A stretch of 64,000 bases of DNA from Branchiostoma lanceolatum (taxonomy: Eukaryota; Chordata; Leptocardii; Amphioxiformes; Branchiostomatidae): positions 8,065,501 to 8,129,500 of the forward strand of contig NC_089727.1 of assembly GCF_035083965.1 (NCBI RefSeq), given 5' to 3'. Of the stretch, positions 14,485 through 40,090 are shown in pieces. Positions within the stretch are counted from its first letter, which is position 1, and the number at the start of each line of letters is the position of its first letter. Position numbers and translations under genes: made by a program. Below the pieces are notes generated by a model. It was not told where the DNA came from and made no database searches. It worked only from the letters and a program-made list of their open reading frames with translations.

Positions 14485-17400
14485 TTAATCTTTCTTGCCA
14501 GAAATGTGTTTCACAAAGCCCTGACACATGAGCACAAACCAGTAGTAATTCAAACTGTTAAACAGAAGACACCCTGAGACGTAACACAAGGACACTTGAA
14601 GAGGCAGCTCGTAGAAGTCGTCTTGTGTTGCCATGACCTTGACAAGGTTGAAGGTCCCGATGGCTGTCACCACCACGCGGGCGATAAAGAACGTCACCAA
14701 CATGACGACACCATTCACAACGTAGAGCTTAGTCTTCTTGTAGCCGAAATCCATAAGGAGATATCTGCCAGTACAAGAAAAATGGAAAGCGATCAGGTAA
14801 TAACATTTGCTAATGTAGATGTTTGATGATTATTGCTCATTGTGAAATGTATCATTCATTCAGTTTATGCCAGGCTGTCTCCAGGACCCGTCCATCCGTC
14901 CCAGGACGGAAATTTGCTTGTTAGGACGGAAAAAAATTCACACTGTCCTTCCCAAAATCTGAACTTTATGACATGAAATTGATGAAAATGCATCTTTGTA
15001 AGCTTAAAATGATGACTTTAACAACGAAAATACAAAACATCCGCACCCAAACAATGAGTGTGGTTGAAAAAAATTTGAAGCTAGAGACAGCCCTGAGTTA
15101 ATGTTAAGTTCTCCTTTTTTGTATCCTGATTTGTTATGATTTTGTAAGGGCTCCCTTGGAAGTCAGTTACTTGGTTAACTGAAGGGACCCCCCAAAAGAT
15201 TCATTAAAAAATAAACGTACAAGTTTGTAGACATCAGATTTTCAGATAATGAACATTCAAATGATTTTTAAGTAAGAATATAACAGTCATCACCTAATAT
15301 CCAAGCAGATGTTTGAGGATGCTAAATCATTAAATGTACTACATGAACCATCAGGGACTCGGTTGGACACTCAGATGGAAGACGTAACGATTTAGCTTCC
15401 CCCAAATATCTGCTTGGAGATTGGGTATCACCTTCTACAGTCATAATAGAGTTTTGTTCTTAAAGGGTATAATACACCAAAATACAACATTTTCCTATTA
15501 TCTGAAATAGGAATAGCATCATTGAAGGAATAGACACGTTTAAAACAAATCACATCCTTCTGATGTCATCTAACATTGAACCATCAGAAACCATACTTTC
15601 ATGGATCCAACTCTTTATTTTTATCTGATCTTCTCACCAGGTGATTACATTAATTCATTCATTCATTCATTAATCAGTGACTAAATACCTGCTCATGACG
15701 TCAGAATGAACACGGCAGCCGGTTAGGAACCTTACACAACGGCTTGCGAAAAACATTATTTAATGGGCAAACAGTGCTTAATTATCGTGATAACATTTAA
15801 TTAAAGGATATAACAATATCTCTTTCGTGTTCTTGTTAAAATAACGTTCTTTCCGAGCCGTTGTGCAAAGTTCCAAATCGACTGCCATCTTCGTTGTGAC
15901 GTCATGAGCAGGTAAGTCACTGATTAATGTAATTACCCAGTGGGAAGAGTCAAAAGCTAGAGGTATGATGTTTTCATGGTTCGATGTTCAATAACATCCG
16001 AAGTGTGCATATGTTGTGAAAATTTCTATGTTATTAAACATATAGTATTATGTTTTAAGTAATTTTAGGACATTCTTAATGTTGATGTCATTGGTGTCTT
16101 ATGCCCTTAAAGATAAGAATAAAGCTGATTAAGAGAACTCAATGGGAGATGGGAGTCAGAACTTGCATTCTCCTTGCCTTAGAAAGACGCTTGGGTTCGA
16201 CAGTTCCATCATAATGGTTATGTTGCCATAGAATGCCATACAGGGATAAAACTGTGAGGAAGAACAAGTGAAGTTGTGAACATCAACAAATTTTAGGTAC
16301 AGGTACAGGTTTAGATAAAGCTACCTGTTTGAATACTGTACCGGTACACAGCTCTGTTTACACATCTTTGATTAAAATAGGCACAAATTACAGTAACTGT
16401 AGTTTAACATTGCCGCATGATAACGGCTTCACCAAAAATGGACGGGGAAAACAACAGAACACTCCGAATATGACCTTAGTTTTTTACAAGCTGCGTCATG
16501 GTTTTAACTGCTTATTGCAGTGAGATGCATTGTGGGTTACATGATAAGTAACATCTCAAAGTTGTAGGCCCCTAGCTGAGACAAATGGAATTTGTCTGGA
16601 TATGTACTTAGAACTGATTACAAGTTAGGGGCCTTCACCATTGACATTTACCAACAATGCATCTCGCTGGACATGTGCAGTTTAAAGGAGTCCTAAACTC
16701 CAGAAGGGGGTGTTATTTTCCACTAGATTATGTATCAATAAATACATAATCAGACAACTTTTCACAAAATTCTGCTTGTGGTGAATTGCACAAGGCGTGT
16801 TTGGTAAAACAATATGATACTCACTAAACCCGTGCAGACCCTATAACCATGTATTCCCTATGCGTAAACATACATCTTTAATCGTAAATATTTTTGGCAT
16901 AAATGAGGGTGGTTAAGCACAATAAGAAGGCCAAATGTTGAGAAGATATAAAAGAACACATAGCCAGAAGGTTTTTCTTAACCACCCTGACATTCTTTTT
17001 GTAATCTAACTTTTGTCAGGCCTTGTAAGGCACATTGTATTAAGCCATAGGCTGAGATTTTTTGATTTAATTAATTAGAAAATAGAGGGTCACCTGGGGA
17101 ATTTAGTAGAATACTGGATGCTTTTTGATTCGCACGGATCTAGTGGGTACTTTATCGTATACTGTAAAAAATATCAATTTTTACTTCCTAAAATTATCAT
17201 CTATTGGAAAATAGCTCCCCCCTCTGGACTTTAGGACTCCTTTAAACAGTGAATCAGCTTATTGGAAGATTCCACGTACCATTCCGATGAATGAGCAGTA
17301 CAGAGACATACAGTGGTGGGCCACGTAGAGCTTGGTGGACAGCTGGGTGTGAAGGGCCATCAGCAGAAGGTCTGTGAAAAGATTCCCACTTATGTAAGTA

Positions 17401-18883: not shown

Positions 18884-19798
18884 CTTATCTAACGTTAGCA
18901 CTGTCTCCTCACAATCTTGCGACGTTAAGTAGGAGAACCTCTTAGAATTGTGTACACCGTTGGACTCTGTACTAAAGGTTTAGGCAACAATGGTCAACAA
19001 AACACACAGTGAAATCCAGGCCTGGTCAGATCAAAGTCCAAAAAGTAAAAAATTCCGGGTCTATAATTGGTTAAGAGCAGCGTTTGTAAAAGGACTGTGA
19101 CCCCAGGAGGGGAAAGCTCTGATCATTATATATTCATGTGCTGGTAATAAACAGAGAATGTGATACCATTTGCATGTCTGCAATGTTGATTAAAAAATAC
19201 CATTGTTAGTTTTGCTTCATGATTAATACATAATCTTTCTCCGGAAACCCTCGTGATTTGGGCGCCGTGCATGATAAAATCCCGTTGTTGTTGCCAAACC
19301 GTAAAAGTCGCATGAAATGCCAAAGTTTCTATAGATATATGACGTCACGGTCTCCGGTCGTAAACCGTCAAGTGACTGTAATCTAGAGTTGTAAATAACG
19401 CCCCCGTGCGATGTGTTTTGGTACTTCTCATATGTCTAACATTCGTTGCTACAGTCGGGTTTTCAAGTATTTGTCCTACTCTGGTCATACTTACGTTGCG
19501 TACCATGCTCAAACGTTTGATGGATGGTACAAAACATGTCAGAATAGAAAAAAGGAATTCATTGTCATTGTCTCCGGATCTACTAGCCCATAACCCAAGG
19601 AATGCATCACCCAATTGACATTTAAAAATACCCGTCTTATCAAGGCCAGCAAACACAGATTCCGGTGCTAGAATGGGCTAAGCAAACTATGGCGTTGTAA
19701 TCTAAAGCGCTGCTCAAACGTCGTAAAAACATTGAAAATCTCTGCAGCCAACGCATCGTTCTCACTGACAAAAAAACAACTACTTTTTCGGAAACAAA
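18884..19798. promoter_or_regulatory. Divergent intergenic region between TLC and GPA2 genes, with one CRE
   Basis: This 915-bp head-to-head gap should hold promoters of both genes. A perfect TGACGTCA lies at 19340-19347, about 450 bp from either start. No TATA box is convincing. A 103-codon minus frame at 19345-19656 lacks exon-like support and is not called. Confidence 0.4.
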
Positions 19799-28610: not shown

Positions 28611-28616
28611 TTTATT
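28611..28616 (-). terminator. Poly(A) signal of the Glu-rich gene
   Basis: AATAAA on the minus strand lies about 55 bp downstream of the stop of the Glu-rich gene, so the 3' UTR is short. Confidence 0.6.
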
Positions 28617-28671: not shown

Positions 28672-31603
28672 CTACGGGTCTACACAGCTTCTTCTACAGC
28701 ACGAGGAAAAGAGGGAGAAGACCCTTCTCAGCCTCCTGGCCACCCTCTTCCCCCGTGCCTTCCACCCCGTCTTATGTTTCTTCTGTCCCTCCTTCTCTTC
28801 ATAAAGGGACTCCTGATTATGAAACCTCTCCAGCTCCGCCTCCTTTTCTGATGTCTCCTCTGTCATGGTTTGTGCCACCTCCTTCTGATAGAGGCCCACA
28901 TCCGCTACTTCCTCATCCATGTTGTTGTTGTTTTCTTCCTCCACCTCCTGTCCACGAGATGAAGTCAGTTCTTCTTCGAGCTCTAGGTAAGCTTGGTAGA
29001 TAGCTGTTGATGAGAGGAGCTGGACGGCATTTTCCAGTTCCTGATCTTGGGAGGAAGTGTTCTCCCGGAGCTCCATGCAGGCGTCCTGAATGGCCGTCCT
29101 GCAGAAGAGCTCCACGAGCGTCTCCAGCTCCTCCTCCTTCTCTCTCATCTCCTCATCCTTCTTCTCCACCTCCTCTTCCTTCTTCTTCACCTCCTCTTCC
29201 TTCTTCTCCACCTCCTCTTCCTTCTTCTCCACCTCCCCCTCCTCTTCCATATCCTCCTCCTCCATCTCCTCCTCCTTCTCTTCCATCTTCTCCTTCTCCT
29301 CCTTCTCTTCCATCTCTTCCTCCTTCTTTGCCATCTCTTCTTCCTTCTCTTCCATCTCTTCTTCCTTCTCTTCCATCTCCTCATCCCTCTTCGTCTCATT
29401 ATCTTCCATCTCTTCTTCCTTCTCTTCCATCTTCTCCTCTTTCTCTTCCATCTCCTTCTTCTTCATCTCCTTGTGTTCCATCTCTCTCTCCTTTTCTTCC
29501 ATCTCCTCCTCCTCTTTCATCTCATCCATCTCTTCCATCTTTTCCTCCTTCTTCATCTCCTTCTCTTTCATCTCCTCCTCCTCCTCCTCCTCCTCCTCCT
29601 CCTCCTCTTCCTTCTCCTTTTTCCTTTCCTCATTCTTCTCTTCCCTTTCCTCCTCTTCCATCTCTATCTCCTTCTTCATCTCCTTCTGTTCTATGTCCTC
29701 TTCCTCCTCTTGCTCTTCCATCTCCTCCTTTTTCCCTTCCATCTCTTCCTCTTCCATCTCTCTCTCCTTCTTTTCCCCATGCACAGTCGGTGCAGATGCT
29801 CCCTGTTTACAACAAGTAAAAAAGACATGATAAGTTTGGCTGCAAAGGAATTCTCTTCAGACATAGAGCAAACAAGAAAACAACAAGACAAACAAGAAAA
29901 CAAACAATTGCTGACAAGTAATGTCCACAAGAACACAATTTAGTCAGCTAGTCTTATAACTTCTTACTGGCACATTTGGAAGATGTCTCTTTCTCTTTCT
30001 AGATCAGAACTCACCTTGTTTGGTACAGAGCATGGGACGTCCGACCTGTCCACCAGAGTAGGATTACTCGAGGAAGTGTTCTGTAATATACAATAACAGG
30101 TTTAGACAAGAAAAATATGAGAGAGGGCGCTCAGCTACTATAACGCTGTGGAAGTGTTTCTATATGTCCTTTACTATATGTCATAATTAGATTTACTTCG
30201 ATACAGGAAGTAACAAAAAAAGTAGGTATAGGATTTACATTACATCTACGTTTGCCATGACAGAAGAAGTACATTAGCTAGAACAATGTATCTTTAACAT
30301 GTAAAACTTCTCTATTCTTCATACACGCCTGATGTCAATGTACGTAAGCTAGCCCTTTCTTTGTCATGTGGTAGCTACAGACAATAATATATAAGAACAC
30401 GTTTGATGAAATCAGCACCAAGGACAGATGCCGGACTGTACAGCATATGGGCGGTGTTACTTTACTTTGTTTATTATCTTACACACATTACAGAATACTA
30501 ACTAGTTGACTACGGATTAGATTTGTAAGCAAAATACGTCATGTGCTACAGTCAATAAGAACTCGTGTGGTCAAATCAGCACCAAGGACAGATACCGGAC
30601 TGTACAGCATATGGGCGGTGTTACTTTATTGTATGATTTTTCTCTCATCAAAAAATGACTACGGATGAGATGCGTTTAGTCTAAAATGTTCCAGTGAAGA
30701 AGGGAAACTATTAGCCAGGGTGACGTACCTTCTCCTGTGGTTGCGACAGCGGTTCCTGGCGGGTCACCACATCACCCTCCGAGATCGAAATGGGAACGGG
30801 TGCAACTGCTACAGTCTGACGCTTGGATGGCGCCTGGGGTAGAATAAAGACATATGCATGATATTAGTGATAACCATTATTGTACATTCATCGCATTCCC
30901 CTATCACGGACTAGGTACAGTCATATGGATACAAAATACATGGTAACGATCACATGATGACACTGACAGGACTTCTAATACTAATCTAAAACAATGGATC
31001 TAAAACTACTATAATTCATAGGTTCGGCTTCTTCCCGTCTCTTTATGATGTTAGAAATATAAGTTGAGTTTGATTTGTTTAATATTAAACGTTAATATAT
31101 CCTGGGGGAAGGAGACTTACAAATACTTGAATGAAGAAAGTGGTTTATGTTTGCGGTTTTCGAGATGAACTACTGTTTCAAACGCGAACTCAAAACCACA
31201 AACCACCGCGAACACTCTTTTTTCTTTCCTGCCGCGAAATTAAATCCCCGCGAACATTTCGGCATTTACAGTACTATGAGGAATACGTGCTTTACGTAAG
31301 TTAATGGAACAGCGGCAGCAATGTAATGCGTTCTAGAACATCAGTCGTGAAGTTATAAACGTAAACAGGTTTGGAACACCTGTATCGAAGTCGTTGAAAC
31401 TTACTGATCCTATTCCAGCTTAAGTTCATAACCTTTGCGGACGACATTCGTGTAAGACTTCATCTTGCAACCACTAGATGACTCACCTTAGGGAGTTGAA
31501 TGCCCCGTTCTTGGAGAAGGCGCTCCCGCAGTCTGATTTTCCTTACACTCTCGTTCAGTTCGACAAAGTCGAGCAAGTAGATGTTCTCTTGGCTGGAAGC
31601 CAT
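28672..31603 (-). CDS. Glu/Lys-rich coiled-coil protein with two AKAP-like helices (4 exons)
   Basis: Minus exons 31603-31487 (ATG), 30833-30729, 30080-30015 and 29802-28672 (stop) all join in phase 0 and give 472 residues. The N-terminus MASSQENIYLLDFVELNESV is followed by basic/hydrophobic helix and Ser/Pro-rich linkers. Residues about 105-315 are almost pure Glu, Lys and Met in short repeats (MEEKEEE), predicted as a long charged helix. Two imperfect 30-31-residue repeats follow at about 320 and 350: LETLVELFCRTAIQDACMEL and LENAVQLLSSTAIYQAYLEL. Their spacing of hydrophobic residues resembles the PKA regulatory-subunit-binding helix of AKAPs. The C-terminus is basic (KARGKRVARRLRRVFSLF) with two cysteine clusters (SSCCRRSC), which could bind membrane and be lipidated. 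I know of no named family with this layout. The exon model is firm; the function is a guess. Confidence 0.75.
29100..29790. repeat. Polypurine/polypyrimidine tract coding for the Glu-rich helix
   Basis: The plus strand is almost only C and T with few A or G, organised as TCC/TTC trinucleotides including an uninterrupted (CTC)n run near 29571-29606. It codes on the minus strand. Such tracts can form triplex DNA and change length easily. Confidence 0.85.
30363..30630. repeat. Direct duplication in an intron of the Glu-rich gene
   Basis: Two blocks at about 30383-30475 and 30545-30630 share 'aaatcagcaccaaggacaga' and 'ggactgtacagcatatgggc'. They lie about 170 bp apart between exons 2 and 3. Confidence 0.7.
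31125..31273. mobile_element. MITE family B, third (shortened) copy
   Basis: It matches the inner 'gtttgcggttttcg' and 'gcgaacatttcggcatttac' parts of the two longer copies but has lost most of the left terminus. It lies in intron 1 of the Glu-rich gene. Confidence 0.65.
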
Positions 31604-31741
31604 TGCTCGATAAAGATATCGATAGTTCGTGGAAACAAAATAAAGTCACAAAGACAGGGTCGCTGTGAAAGCAGCAAAAATTTTTCGCGTCTGCTCTAGA
31701 AGTAGGCAAACAGTTAAATGAACAGTTCGTTTTGCGACGAA

Positions 31742-31749
31742 CTTTTATA
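31742..31749 (-). promoter_or_regulatory. TATA box of the Glu-rich gene
   Basis: TATAAAAG on the minus strand lies about 140 bp upstream of the ATG at 31603. A start of transcription near 31715 would follow. Confidence 0.55.
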
Positions 31750-31790
31750 CCCTCGGTTAGCTCGAGTGCGCTGTGACCTAGGCTGGTCGA

Positions 31791-31798
31791 TGACGTCA
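31791..31798. promoter_or_regulatory. Promoter-proximal CRE
   Basis: A perfect palindromic TGACGTCA, the CREB/ATF site, lies about 45 bp upstream of the TATA box, a usual position for a functional CRE. Confidence 0.6.
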
Positions 31799-32068
31799 TC
31801 AGCCGTCGTTTTTAGAAGTACTTTTCTCCCTATTTATCGAATGAAATGAAGTGATACTGTGACTTTATGTAGAATTTGACCTCTGGAATCGTTTTCAATC
31901 CTTGTTACACTATGTTGTGGTCGTACAACTTGTAATTTCGCCCATTTTGTAAGCAGTGCACTCTGCTCTAAGCAGCTCTGAGCAAGGTGTACTGGTCACG
32001 TGACCGGGGCACAACGAACCGTGGACTATTCCATTATGAAATTGGGAAGGGGTGTTTTCTAAGGCCGC

Positions 32069-32171
32069 CTACGTCATAAATATCTAGAGACGTCATAAAC
32101 ATGATATGACGTCATAAACATGATATGACGTCATAAACGTGAAATGACGTCATAATCATCATGTGACGTCA
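32069..32171. promoter_or_regulatory. Six-unit CRE array, exact 19-bp period
   Basis: Four perfect TGACGTCA sites start at 32107, 32126, 32145 and 32164. Two further units with one or two mismatches start at 32069 (CTACGTCA) and 32088 (AGACGTCA). All steps are 19 bp and the linkers are variants of 'taaacatgata'. The array is about 470-570 bp upstream of the Glu-rich ATG. Confidence 0.7.
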
Positions 32172-32179
32172 CAAACAAA

Positions 32180-33224
32180 TCTATTTGGTAGCGGAGGATG
32201 TCTTACATTGATTTCGAGCTAACGATGCCGTTTACTTACCGTATATCCTAGGTTGATGCTTGACGATATATCTAGAAGGGTAGGTGTTTAAGAGGCTTTT
32301 CTGTACCCTGTGGTTGAGTGTATAAGATTGTGGTGGATGCAGTTACATTGTTACCTTGAAGAACGACTCTTATAGCTCCACAAAATGACTAGTTGAAAGT
32401 TCACTGAGTCATTATAGATCTATGTTTGTCTGCCGAGGCACGCCCAGGCGTCGGCAGGGCGTCGATAGGCTTATCAACGGTCGGCCGAAGCTCGGACGGC
32501 GTTAGCCCGAGCTTCGGTCGATTTCAGTTTGGTGAAAATGTTTGGATCGGGGTTAAACAACTGATCTGTTGACTTTGTGGCTCCTGCGCTAGTATTCGGA
32601 TTGGTTTATGACAAAATTCCTTTTTAGGTTATTATTTTCAGTGTGCCCACCCACTTCACTCATGTCCTACAGATTTGCCACAACTCAGAAAGTAAAGTTG
32701 GTCCAAATTTGAGCTTGTTACCTGGTCAGTTGATTCTGACTTCATCCGTGTCCAAGAGATGGTACCGTCTTATGTGGGATTTATGATTATTAGTGTTCGA
32801 CGGACGTCGCCCGAGCTCCGTTCAATTTGTGACGGGGCAGGTTTTCAGCGAAAAATACGGTCGACGTTCGGGCGAATTTGAAATTCGGCGAGCTTCCGGC
32901 GATTTAGAAAATCGGCCGATGCTCGCATGAATTGTGACGCCGGCTTTAGGACGCAGGGTATCAAGATAATATAAGTCATCAGCTGAGTTCGTTTACTCAT
33001 GACTTGGCTATGATTCACTCTGAAATGCAAGTTACAGGTCGATGGCAATCAGCATCAAGGACAGGTTTATATCATTAAACAACTTCCTTTGTAGCATCCA
33101 TCACATTACCTTCACAAAATCGTTTCTGAGGACTACAGATCTGGACTTTTATTAAGGGTACTTTGAAATGACTTTAGTCCAGCAAAACATCGCTGAAATT
33201 CTATTTCTGCTTTTTTCGCAGGAT
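32180..33224. other. Intergenic, no gene supported
   Basis: The stretch contains short self-similar pieces with 'cggccgaagctcgg' and 'ggcgagcttccggcg' in mixed orientation around 32450-32930, probably a decayed repeat. No exon-like frame is seen. Confidence 0.4.
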
Positions 33225-35823
33225 ATCAATAATAAGTTTATTGCAAATTCATGCCCGAAGGCTAAATGCAAATAACATACATAAAAGAACGGTGTACAAA
33301 ATAGGTATAAAAGCTGCTTATCTAAATTATACAAATGTAATTGTCTATAACTAGGGAAGGGTTTGACTTCTCTTTTGTAAGCAATGGAAGACGTAATGTC
33401 CCACCTTTTCTATAATTTGTGGGTTTTTGGTAGTTAAAAGAAGAATAGTCTTTTCTTTGTCTGTAAGCTTAGGGAAATTCGGATAGATTTTAGTGGTCTT
33501 AATAGACAACACATTTCGTGCATTATCATGAAATGAACAGTTTGAAATAAAGTGTATTTCGTCTTCCACGGCATTTGTATTGCAATACTTACAAAGTCTT
33601 TCGTATATAAGTAATTTTCTATACCGGCCTCTCTCTATTTCAAGAGGATGAGCACTAACTCTAATTTTGCTAATGGCTGAGCGCAGATCAAAATCTGCAA
33701 GATCAAGATAACTCTCTAAATTGTACATGGTTTTACATTTTGCATAGAATCTTAACTTACCGCTGTCGTTTACCAAGGTATGAAAAAATGATTGTATATA
33801 TATATCTGTTAGTCTCCTTCTCAGCGCTTTTCCGACATGTTCAGGTTTACAATGTGTATTACCGGGGTGCCACAAATAGGAATATCCATTGTAATCTAAT
33901 ATGTCTTTAACACGTTGTAACAATGTTCGTCTACGGGTATTCGTCGGAAGACTTTGCTGTAGATGGAGTGCGTCCGCTTGGAGGGGGTGTGTAGATCTAT
34001 CGATTTGAACCAGACGTAACCAGAATTTAACTATATATATATACATATATCTATATCTAATGGGAATCTACCTAAATCTGCTCTACATGCTACATTGCTA
34101 CTATTTCTAAAAACACCAAGAACATTTTTGCAGAACTGGTTGTGTACGTTTTCAATAGGCGACGCATCATGTAGTTGTTCTGTCCCCCAGATTTGGCATC
34201 CGTACAGAAGGATCGGTTTTATGTAGGTATCAAATATCTTTAGAAGGCCGCGTGGTAAGACTGATGAACGAATGGTAGATTTAAAGCTATAAATGGTTTT
34301 AGGTGCCTTAAGTGACAGCTGCTTTTTGGCTAGGGTGAAGCTACCTGATGATGTGAGGGTTAGGCCTAAATAGCAATAAGAGGGGACATTGTCTATTGTG
34401 TTATTTTCAAAGTAGAACTTTTGCTTTGGAAAAGAACGACCTGCCTTGTTAAATATGATTACTTTTGTTTTCTTCATATTTACTTGGAGCTTCCATTTGC
34501 TACAAAAGTCACTTAGTCTGTTAATTGCAGATTGCAGACCTTTGTCTGATTCTGAAAATATAACAACATCATCTGCATACAATAAACATGAAACATAAAG
34601 ATTATATAAAGTTGGTGGCATACACTCTAAGTTATCTAACTCTTTAACTAAATCATTAATAAATAAATTAAAAAGGGTGGGGCTCATGTTGCAACCCTGA
34701 CGGACACCCTTGTCGGTCACAAATGGTGGTGTTAGACCAGATTTTGTTTTTACACAAGTTTCAGGTTTACTATATAAACATTTGATTAACTTATAGAAAT
34801 TCCCTCCTATTCCTGAATTCAGCAATTTGAAACGGAGCCCTTCCCTCCAAACTGTGTCAAATGCTTTTCTAAAATCTATAAAACATGAATAAAGGCGTTT
34901 GTTGTTATGGAAATATTTGGTAATTAGCGAGTCTAAGACAAAGAGATTGTCATTTGTGCCGAAGTGTTTTCTAAAGCCGGCCTGGTTGGGGGAGATGAGT
35001 TTATTCTCATCTAAAAAAGTGGTTAAACATATATTCAAAACTGATGTGAATAGTTTGGCCAGGCAGCTGGTACCGAAATTCCTCTGTAGTTATCTTTTGC
35101 CCCGCCCTTGTGTAGGGCCACAATGTGGCTAGTACACCAATTCTGGGGAAAATAACCAGAGGAAAGAAAAAGGTTAAATAGTTTGGTCAGGGGTTCTATA
35201 AGTGTGTGCGGGGAGCTTTTTAACATTTCATTGAGGATTAGATCATTACCTGAGGCCTTTCCATTTTTAAGGTCTGAAATTGCTTTACTGATCTCGTTAC
35301 TCAGAATCGGACTGTCTAGGGGGTTGTCTTTTAGGTCGTTCGCTAACTTCAATAATTTGCTTTTTATTTGAGTTTCAAAACTGTCTGATGATATTGAAAC
35401 GTTGGAGGTGGATTCTTTACCATAAAGATTTTTAAAGTGCGAATGGAGTTTTTCTTCGGTAATTACATCTTGAGTATTTGACTTACTATAGCTATTGGAC
35501 TTGAAGTCTTTGAGTGACCAAAATGACGAAGGATTGTTATCAGAGTAAGAGTTAAGTTGATTTAGGATATTATTTTTGAAATCTTTTTTGGTTTTGCGTA
35601 TGAGTCTTGTGTATTGCTTTTTCTTTTTAAAATAGGACCCTATGAGAAATGGGTTACGTGGGTCTTTGGAGAGAAGTCTACCTAGGTTTTTAAGTTCTTG
35701 TCTGGCCGAAGCGCATGTTTGGTCGAACCATCTTTTTCTGCTTTTTTTTTTATTACACCACTGTTTTCGTTTTTCAGGATACACAAACTTATTTGGTCTA
35801 AAGATACACAAATGAGTCAACAC
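33225..35823 (-). mobile_element. 5'-truncated non-LTR retrotransposon (LINE), frameshifted
   Basis: On the minus strand the linker after the endonuclease (QWCNKKKSRKRWFDQTC) leads to reverse transcriptase. RT motifs in order are FPQNWCTSHIVALHKGG, FIDFRKAFDTVWREGL, GVRQGCNMSPTLFNLFINDL and the catalytic YADDVVIFSES. A C-terminal region (DEIHFISNCSFHDNARNVLS) with a typical LINE end follows. The frame is broken twice: by a one-base loss near 35070, between YRGIS and the continuing CLAKLFTS, and at a TA microsatellite near 34030-34050. The endonuclease domain is absent. The 3' end is near 33225-33260, with an AATAAA in 'gcaataaacttattattg'. The clade (CR1/Jockey/I-like) is not decided. Confidence 0.85.
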
Positions 35824-35842
35824 TTTCGTTTGCAGCAGTATG

Positions 35843-36937
35843 TAACGTTGGGTAACATAAATTCGCGGGGTACTTAAATTCGCGATTTTTCGAAAACGGC
35901 GTATTTAGGGATATGTACTACATGCAAAATCAGTTATAACGCCAGCAATGCAAAGCAGATAGACTAACGTATTCAGAACACTGGCTGAAAAGCTTCGATA
36001 ACCATGCATTAGAAGTTGGCGACGTAAAAAACTCTCCGTCCCTTATTGACAGAGTCTGGGGGCTTCGTGGGAGAATCACCCAGCACGGTTGTTCGCTGGT
36101 TTATAAGACAAATGTCACATCTCCTGCCTGCTAAACACAATTATTTATAAGACAACTTATTACAATCTCTTTTGCTAACCCTGCAACTGGATTCTAAGTG
36201 TGATCAATCATCAAAACTCCTCTCTGTTGCTACAACCTACGGCACGTGTATTTTCCCGCCGCCATATTGTTAACCAGAATCCTGTTGTCAAGCAGACGAC
36301 AAAGGTTTGTGAGGAACACTTTTTTGTCTAAATGCTGCGTGTGATAGTGGACTGAGGAAGATATTTTCCTCAAAGTTTGCTCCTAACACAACAAGGAACA
36401 CATGGACATAGTAGTATTACCATTGCTACGGCATCCAGCTAACTTTCCATGAATAATGTAACGTTACACGTTGCCCGATGATGACGATGGGCCGACTTTG
36501 AGTGAAGTTCTACCGACTCAACACACGGGTTGTTCCGGAACTGGCCTGATGTGTGCGGTACGGCCGTTTTTTCGTGTATTTTTTTTACTTGGACACGTCT
36601 ATATCCATAGCACTCTCCTCAAGCCAAGGATGGAACGAATAGCTGCTGTATAAAATGTGATTAGCGGTAAGATATTCAAGACGAATCTTCTCTCCCGAAT
36701 TAATGTGCCCCCCTGTCCGACAGCACCTTTATTGTGCGTGCGGCGGACGGTAGTTTCAAGTTGAAATATTATGGTGTCAGCACGACTAGAGACAAAATCT
36801 ACCATATATATGATTAGTGCAAAGATAGTACATGATACTGACAGAATTATAGAAAAAAAGGATGGTTTATTGTTCTGCTAGATTGATTTCAGTCAACCAT
36901 TATCGGAAAAATCCCGAATTTATGTTACCCAACGTTA
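35843..36937. mobile_element. Non-autonomous DNA transposon, 1.1 kb, TIR ACGTTGGGTAACATAAATTCG
   Basis: The left end 'taacgttgggtaacataaat' and the right end 'atttatgttacccaacgtta' are terminal inverted repeats of about 22 bp flanked by TA. The interior has no transposase frame. It sits about 20 bp from the truncated end of the LINE. Confidence 0.75.
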
Positions 36938-38208: not shown

Positions 38209-39970
38209 TTAGTCAATTATGACGTTTGATTCACCTATAATTTGTACCAACAATGTCTGTTCAGATCTATGACGTAAGTCACCTTTTGTCCCCTCCTCGT
38301 CCTGCTCCTGATCCAAGTCCACCACCTGATACCTGTCGCTCTTTTCTGTGACGTCACTCACTGCGCTTACCCAGGATTCCTTGGACGCGTCTTTTGTGAC
38401 AGGGATAGACTTTGGGTCGGCTGCATCTTCCGCCATGCCTGAGAAAGAAAGAAAAAAACAAAATTTCATTTTGGCCACATCAAGTAAATCCCTTTAGACT
38501 TGTCGACATGAAATTTCTGTTCATACATACCTCCACCGCCAAAAAGACTAGAATTCTCGTACGCACAAAGTTTCAACGTAACGTTACAACATCATCATCA
38601 TCATCATCATCCGTCTTCCTCTTACGAGGTGAAGCAAGTCAAGTTTTTTGTTGCTGTGTTGTGGGACAACAAACATACAAAAAAGAGGCAATTCTAGTTA
38701 AAACTCACCTGGTAGAGACGTTTTTGTGTTCAGGTTCACGGAAGTGTTAGAAGGCTTCTTCAGCTCAGCAGCGTTCACAGGCTTTCTTACTCTCTCGGCG
38801 TAACTTGTCTTCACAAAGAGGTGAGCTTCCCTGTATAAAAAAGGTCACATCAAATTGCAAGTTTGCTCAACAAGTGAAAAACGAATAATCATTATGAATT
38901 AAAGAATGAAACATGTGCGAGCGTGAAATGAAACCGCTTCAACATTCAGAAGACTGTTTATGAAAAAATGACAATCTTTATCTGTAAATAATATACGATA
39001 ACGTAAAAACGAAAATAATATATGTTTGAATATGTTTGTTTAATTCTGTTTGTTTAACTAAGTTTTTTTTTTAAATTTTGCTCCATGCTTAAATGATACG
39101 TACAGGAGGACAGCAACTATTATGTGACGTGATGTTCTAGAATATAAGATGGCTCCTATCCAAGTTTTCCTCTCCAATGGACCTTCTAAAATCATAGTAC
39201 AAACACTACTGTGATATACTTACTTAATATTCATAGGAAGAATCAGGAATTGTGGCTCACCTATTTCTCCTGATATTTGTAGACAGTTCCGGTCCGACCA
39301 CGCCAGTCTTGGACAGTTTGAATTTCTGGTACCGGAATCCTATCAGGATCTTGTCTCCCGTGAAGAACGCCCCCTGGCGATCTTCCACCGTCACCTCAAC
39401 TTTCAGACTGCTGGCGTAGAAGGCCTCTGTGACGACGTACACAGCCTTGGCTTTACTCAAGTCATCGTTGTAGTTCATTTGAAGACGCAGGTCACCTTTC
39501 TTGAGGGTCAGGTGTACCACCTCCTTGACGACGCTGCCCACCTTGACGTAGAACCTCTTCCTCTCGCCATCGTGCTCGTTCCCGATCGTGTGGGTCCACG
39601 GAAAGCCCGAGGGAGGAGCCTCCCAGTTCTGGTCGGCCTTGGGGGTGAGGATCGTCCGCAGGTTAGCCGGCGCGCTCACGCTCATGTCTTGGACGGTGCC
39701 GATCGCCCGGAGAGTTGTGTGACGGTGGGCGGCCTTGGCGGTCAGCGACTGAGGATCTTTCACCAGGATGGTACCGAGGTCGAAGCACGCCGAGTCTTCG
39801 GGGCAGGACACCGGGACGACATCCGAGCCCAACAGCCGTTTGATGACCAGCTCTCCGCCCAGCTTCCATCCAAGGTTCGGGTCCGCACCGAGCAACTTCT
39901 TACACATCTTCTTAGGCATCTCCTTGCGAGAACTGGCCCACGAGGACGTTTTTGTGACAGATTTAGTCAT
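38209..39970 (-). CDS. Uncharacterised 353-residue protein, possible gasdermin-like N-terminal region
   Basis: Minus exons 39970-39261 (ATG), 38830-38709 and 38438-38209 (stop) join in phases 2 and 1. The N-terminal 240 residues look like a folded beta-rich domain: GWKLGGELVIKRLLGSDVVP, FDLGTILVKD, RFYVKVGSVVKEVVHLTLKK, AKAVYVVTEAFYASSLKVEV and GDKILIGFRYQKFKL. The VYVVTE block, the xLxxIL block before it and their spacing recall the gasdermin pore-forming domain, but only weakly, and no other family is evident. The C-terminal 110 residues are Lys/Ser/Asp/Glu-rich and look disordered. No signal peptide or membrane helix is seen, so the protein is likely cytosolic. A frame continues upstream of the ATG to 40012 without another ATG. 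A perfect CRE lies 113 bp upstream of the ATG. Confidence 0.65.
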
Positions 39971-40082
39971 GTTTTGCGAGTGTTTTTTCACAAGACAGTT
40001 TGACACAGTCACAGAGTACGTCTGTACGTAAGCCGTACTAAGAACAGAGTGATCCTAATACGGTCGCTATGCTCTAGAACTA

Positions 40083-40090
40083 TGACGTCA
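40083..40090. promoter_or_regulatory. CRE upstream of the 39970 gene
   Basis: TGACGTCA lies 113 bp upstream of the minus-strand ATG at 39970. It is the same palindrome found upstream of the Glu-rich gene. Confidence 0.45.

Follow-up and report, generated by a model that had tools for sequence, protein, structure and literature searches.

Features of the locus

The window, namely the whole stretch of amphioxus DNA that was analysed (64,000 nucleotides), holds on its minus strand a Glu-rich gene model, built from the sequence alone by splice consensus, and upstream of it a TATA box, a promoter-proximal CRE, an E-box and a tandem array of CRE-bearing units. These features are listed below by ascending position, so that the model, being on the minus strand, reads from the later entries to the earlier ones.

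28672–29802, minus strand: exon 4, predicted, with a Glu/Lys-rich stretch, two related segments, a basic Cys-containing C-terminus and a stop
30015–30080, minus strand: exon 3, predicted from splice sites, phase 0
30729–30833, minus strand: exon 2, predicted from splice sites, phase 0
31487–31603, minus strand: coding exon 1, ATG at 31603, donor GTGAGT
31743–31749, minus strand: TATA box TATAAAA, the sole TATAWA match on both strands within 31603–32420
31791–31798, unstranded: perfect CRE in the context GATGACGTCATC, promoter-proximal, 41 bp upstream of the TATA box
31994–32005, unstranded: palindromic E-box GGTCACGTGACC of 12 bp, containing GTCACGTGAC, between the proximal CRE and the array
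32069–32182, unstranded: tandem array, 6 x 19 bp, each unit with one CRE or CRE-like core
32069–32076, unstranded: unit 1 core CTACGTCA, two mismatches
32088–32095, unstranded: unit 2 core AGACGTCA, one mismatch
32107–32114, unstranded: unit 3 core, perfect TGACGTCA
32126–32133, unstranded: unit 4 core, perfect TGACGTCA
32145–32152, unstranded: unit 5 core, perfect TGACGTCA
32164–32171, unstranded: unit 6 core, perfect TGACGTCA

The four-exon model gives 472 residues plus a stop, including 156 Glu and 57 Lys; all of its joins are in phase 0 and an AATAAA follows the stop at 28611–28616. Pfam searches of the long Glu-rich frame returned no families at E up to 0.1, and none at E up to 10 for its N-terminal 109 residues, while at the latter limit the C-terminal 152 residues gave four sub-threshold families, the best of which was PAAT-like (E 0.0074, 16.2 bits vs a cutoff of 27). 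The C-terminal piece of the same frame gave one match in a PDB sequence search (E 0.33).

Beyond the array, as seen from the Glu-rich gene, the nearest stop-to-stop frames of at least 120 aa are three at 33351–35904, on the minus strand; Pfam was run on two of them and one matches the reverse transcriptase family RVT_1. These overlapping frames are probably a frame-broken non-LTR retrotransposon reading towards the array. The frame at 39257–40054, also on the minus strand and reading towards the array, matches DUF4663 (E 3e-18), and a PDB sequence search with it found none at E up to 1. Given these neighbouring frames, the Glu-rich gene is by position, and by position only, the natural target of the array.

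Neither Rfam at gathering thresholds nor a tRNA scan gave matches in the window. A transposon origin of the array, for which a second copy or bounding inverted repeats would speak, finds no sign within the 64 kb that were searched. The blastn comparison of 31400–33300 with the 64-kb window returned only the region itself and no second copy of the array; closer than 800 bp to the array just one exact 12-base inverted pair occurs, inside the array itself, and none of the three inverted pairs in 31400–33000 bounds it. An exact 27-base array pattern had no matches in viral contigs.

The array lies 319–422 bp from the TATA box. The sequence-only reading that drew attention to this locus had placed a seventh perfect copy at 31791, where it is indeed found, and had put it 45 bp from the TATA box, a gap that measures 41 bp. 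The E-box at 31994–32005 is a possible second regulatory input.

Anatomy of the 19-bp array

The array is composed of six head-to-tail units at an exact period of 19 (32069–32182), with the unit consensus TGACGTCATAAACATGATA; the six starts first read from the letters (32069, 32088, 32107, 32126, 32145 and 32164) are correct, as is the count of four perfect units. TGACGTCA is thus perfect in 4/6 units, and ACGTCA, with its CpG, is intact in all six. Tandem Repeats Finder reports the array as 32089–32177 (period 19, 4.7 copies, 87% matches, score 136) and, in a second row, as 32071–32177 (period 38, 2.8 copies, score 142); since the latter begins at 32071, both altered bases of unit 1 may be flank. 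From left to right the units match the consensus at 12, 18, 19, 17, 16 and 13 of 19 positions, and the boundaries of the array are sharp, because the 19-base stretches outside it match at only 1–5 positions (5 and 5 on the left; 2, 1 and 2 on the right). As a tandem repeat the array exceeds chance.

Two descriptions apply to this DNA. With head-to-tail repeats and degenerate edges the array is a minisatellite, and the sites at 31791–32171 are a homotypic cluster, i.e. several sites of the same family within a few hundred bp. In fact, six sites with at most one mismatch fall in 31791–32171 (five in the array, plus 31791), vs three in the densest 400 bp found elsewhere in the window, starting at 15696. 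Neighbouring cores are separated by gaps of 11 bp at the 19-bp spacing, and 19 bp corresponds to 1.81 helical turns (10.5 bp per turn), with successive sites rotating around the helix. Since this is not a whole number of turns, the sites do not line up along a single face of the helix; the word "phased", used of the array before, holds for the constant spacing and fails for the shared face.

The core is, with moderate confidence, better preserved than the linker within the array. Variable columns amount to 2/8 in the core vs 9/11 in the linker (Fisher p = 0.022; column shuffle p = 0.026), and the difference persists when any circular 8-column window is allowed (p = 0.011) or only units 2–6 are taken (p = 0.0095), whereas the four interior units alone give p = 0.15. 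Within 32071–32177, departures from the consensus affect 1 of 46 core cells vs 11 of 61 linker cells, with a p of 0.008 computed on cells that share a history and are not independent. All these tests of variation concern one array of six related units.

CREs across the window

One such 8-mer per about 64 kb had been expected by chance, and 100 shuffles of the window bear this out with a mean of 0.92 copies. The window actually holds 13 perfect TGACGTCA, namely the four of the array, the 31791 copy and eight others, a number reached by none of the 100 shuffles. A view of TGACGTCA as rare in the window is ruled out by these 13 copies.

Outside the array there are nine copies vs 0.8–0.9 expected from dinucleotides. 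With the array masked, the nine copies exceed the expectation under Markov orders 2–4 (0.88–1.55, P 4e-7 to 4e-5) and order 5 (2.9, P 0.003), and are not significant under order 6 (4.75, P 0.053). Among palindromes of equal composition TGACGTCA has nine copies and the runner-up five; by observed/expected ratio, again with the array masked, it ranks third of the 8-base palindromes, behind two TA repeats. In raw counts, the 13 intact copies compare with four of the CpG-decay forms TGATGTCA and TGACATCA together, and the CpG observed/expected ratio of the window is 0.76. Passages of PMC3464117 describe CpG as the fast-changing part of mammalian CREs, yet in the array it is unchanged in all six units, a point in favour of a kept core.

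Two of the single copies belong to a fold-back element at 15600–15978, whose imperfectly inverted arms (15600–15773 and 15828–15978) each hold a perfect TGACGTCA at the same aligned place (15696 and 15897); such an element, if mobile, could spread CREs. The copy at 38349 falls within a possibly coding stretch of 52 codons, free of stops in one of the three minus-strand frames. The copy at 40083–40090 precedes the chosen first ATG of the DUF4663 frame by about 110 bp and is accompanied by a second half-site, TGACGCG. An inverted-repeat search around each of the CREs at 19340, 27803, 42169 and 54485 found none.

Because of this excess of single CREs, including a possibly coding one and those of the fold-back element, a TGACGTCA at this locus is not necessarily a functional promoter site, and the over-representation across the window makes the 31791 copy mildly surprising at most. 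The 300-bp flanks of the array are expected to hold 0.08 single CREs at the observed density and 0.008 at the composition rate. Passages of PMC3464117 place TGACGTCA preferentially in human proximal promoters; the 31791 site fits this localisation and resembles the single proximal CREs of animal promoters, whereas the array is farther upstream and multi-copy.

Regulatory reading and its alternatives

Our leading interpretation, held with evenly balanced confidence, is that a small minisatellite with a CREB/ATF-type bZIP site may serve as a homotypic enhancer of the Glu-rich gene. The array itself is real, a tidy minisatellite of CREs whose position would suit an enhancer. The units hold all or most of the CREB/ATF binding sequence, so that the repeat is probably a natural multi-site enhancer; the argument from the 31791 copy is weaker, because single CREs are common across the window. 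The earlier proposal of a CREB/ATF enhancer is partly supported, in that it fits the multi-site anatomy upstream of a TATA gene and the preserved core. Judged from its letters, TGACGTCA alone cannot separate CREB and cAMP from ATF2/ATF7, JUN-ATF or other bZIP factors.

In the mechanism that we infer, in which binding, activity and target gene of the array, the start site and the cAMP or stress-kinase input are all predicted, bZIP dimers (CREB, ATF1 or ATF2/7-like) would sit on several neighbouring units at once and recruit a CBP-type coactivator. The array would then cooperate with the proximal CRE at 31791 on the TATA promoter of the Glu-rich gene, from which transcription may start near 31718, a guess made from the TATA position; a factor bound to the E-box GGTCACGTGACC would perhaps contribute to transcription from the same promoter.

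Homotypic CREB/ATF clusters and synthetic multimer CRE reporters are characterized by several bZIP sites at short spacing before a promoter, and the array is probably a further case of this multi-CRE type, as far as its letters tell; the reporters are designed, whereas the array is natural and has the anatomy of a minisatellite. If active, it would be a natural counterpart of these laboratory reporters and would directly exemplify an enhancer born from tandem duplication, and its site number could differ between individuals, tied to the strength of the response.

The tandem CRE of the human alpha-subunit promoter has two copies, both TGACGTCA, in an 18-bp repeat nearer the start site, in contrast to the six copies at 19 bp described here, and the genes are unrelated. 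The two systems share tandem CREs upstream of a promoter, as passages of PMC11049346 describe for the human one. According to the same passages, deletion of the tandem CRE lowers the forskolin induction from 6.6-fold to 2.7-fold and abolishes the response to activated MKK6 (p38 pathway), an older transient assay cited there saw no loss of the 8-Br-cAMP response without it, and cAMP/PKA, p38 and Gq/calcium signalling all converge on the element (PMC11049346). Binding to CREs is inhibited by CpG methylation, as stated in passages of PMC3464117 that cite earlier work; methylation of the array would thus weigh against the enhancer reading. Open-chromatin motifs in gastrulae of four deuterostomes, amphioxus included, are the subject of PMC11240583, whose passages do not concern this locus. 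In the literature, judged by titles and abstract beginnings, no such array is among the matches listed for CREB and the cAMP response element in amphioxus, nor among those for minisatellites with this element, which is no proof of absence.

A tentative but serious alternative is a neutral minisatellite without regulatory function, born when slippage or unequal exchange multiplied a 19-bp unit that held TGACGTCA by chance. Tandem arrays are common in the window, as indicated by its 40 Tandem Repeats Finder rows (some overlapping), and the nine single CREs outside the array make it likelier for a duplicated piece to contain a CRE. In minisatellites generally the edge units are the most diverged; here too degeneracy peaks in the outer units (12 and 13 of 19 matches, vs 16–19 inside), and the conservation of the core loses significance on the four interior units. 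Against neutrality, over all six units the core varies less than the linker and the CpG is kept in every unit. The coincidence of a CRE with an array would also be uncommon: the probability of TGACGTCA in a given 19-bp unit is about 0.00025 at the composition rate, and over 22 array periods picked by hand in the window 0.013 CRE-holding arrays are expected at this rate, two figures that ignore other noticeable motifs and the high CRE density of the window; scaled to the observed CRE density, the expectation for the same 22 periods is about 0.14.

A bZIP enhancer that does not answer to cAMP is unlikely; in this case ATF2/ATF7/JUN-type stress dimers would be the main readers of the palindrome ATGACGTCAT, or a homeodomain factor would recognise the GTCATAAA part that overlaps it. 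The proximal site has the form GATGACGTCATC, a preferred ATF2/ATF7/JDP2-type 12-mer, and TAAA follows the core in 4/6 units. Also in line with stress dimers, the human alpha-subunit promoter responds to p38 wholly via its tandem CRE, according to passages of PMC11049346. However, no feature of the array favours one bZIP over another, and past ACGTCA the flank is constant only in part. RTAAAYA, a forkhead-type reading of overlapping letters, fits only 3/6 units, in favour of the CREB/ATF one. A structural role, with palindromic units forming hairpins or cruciforms that mark a fragile or recombination site, is very improbable, since the single-strand DNA fold that would speak for it (-23.7 vs a shuffle mean of -11.4 kcal/mol, z = -5.1, 0/200 shuffles as stable) is expected of any tandem array of palindromic sites and was compared with a shuffle control that destroys the repeats.

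The enhancer reading can be extended to the protein. Exon 4 encodes two related segments, CRTAIQDACMEL and SSTAIYQAYLEL, at model residues 330 and 360. The strict PKA-anchoring motif has no matches in the Glu-rich protein; a relaxed form, loosened after the sequence had been inspected, has two, a number equalled by 2.3% of 5000 shuffled tails. The loose resemblance of the two segments to PKA-anchoring helices is a lead only, and it is a far-fetched proposal that the copy number of the minisatellite sets the cAMP sensitivity of a lineage-specific Glu-rich gene whose PKA-anchoring-like segments would close a cAMP feedback loop. The basic Cys-containing end of exon 4 might anchor the protein to membranes.
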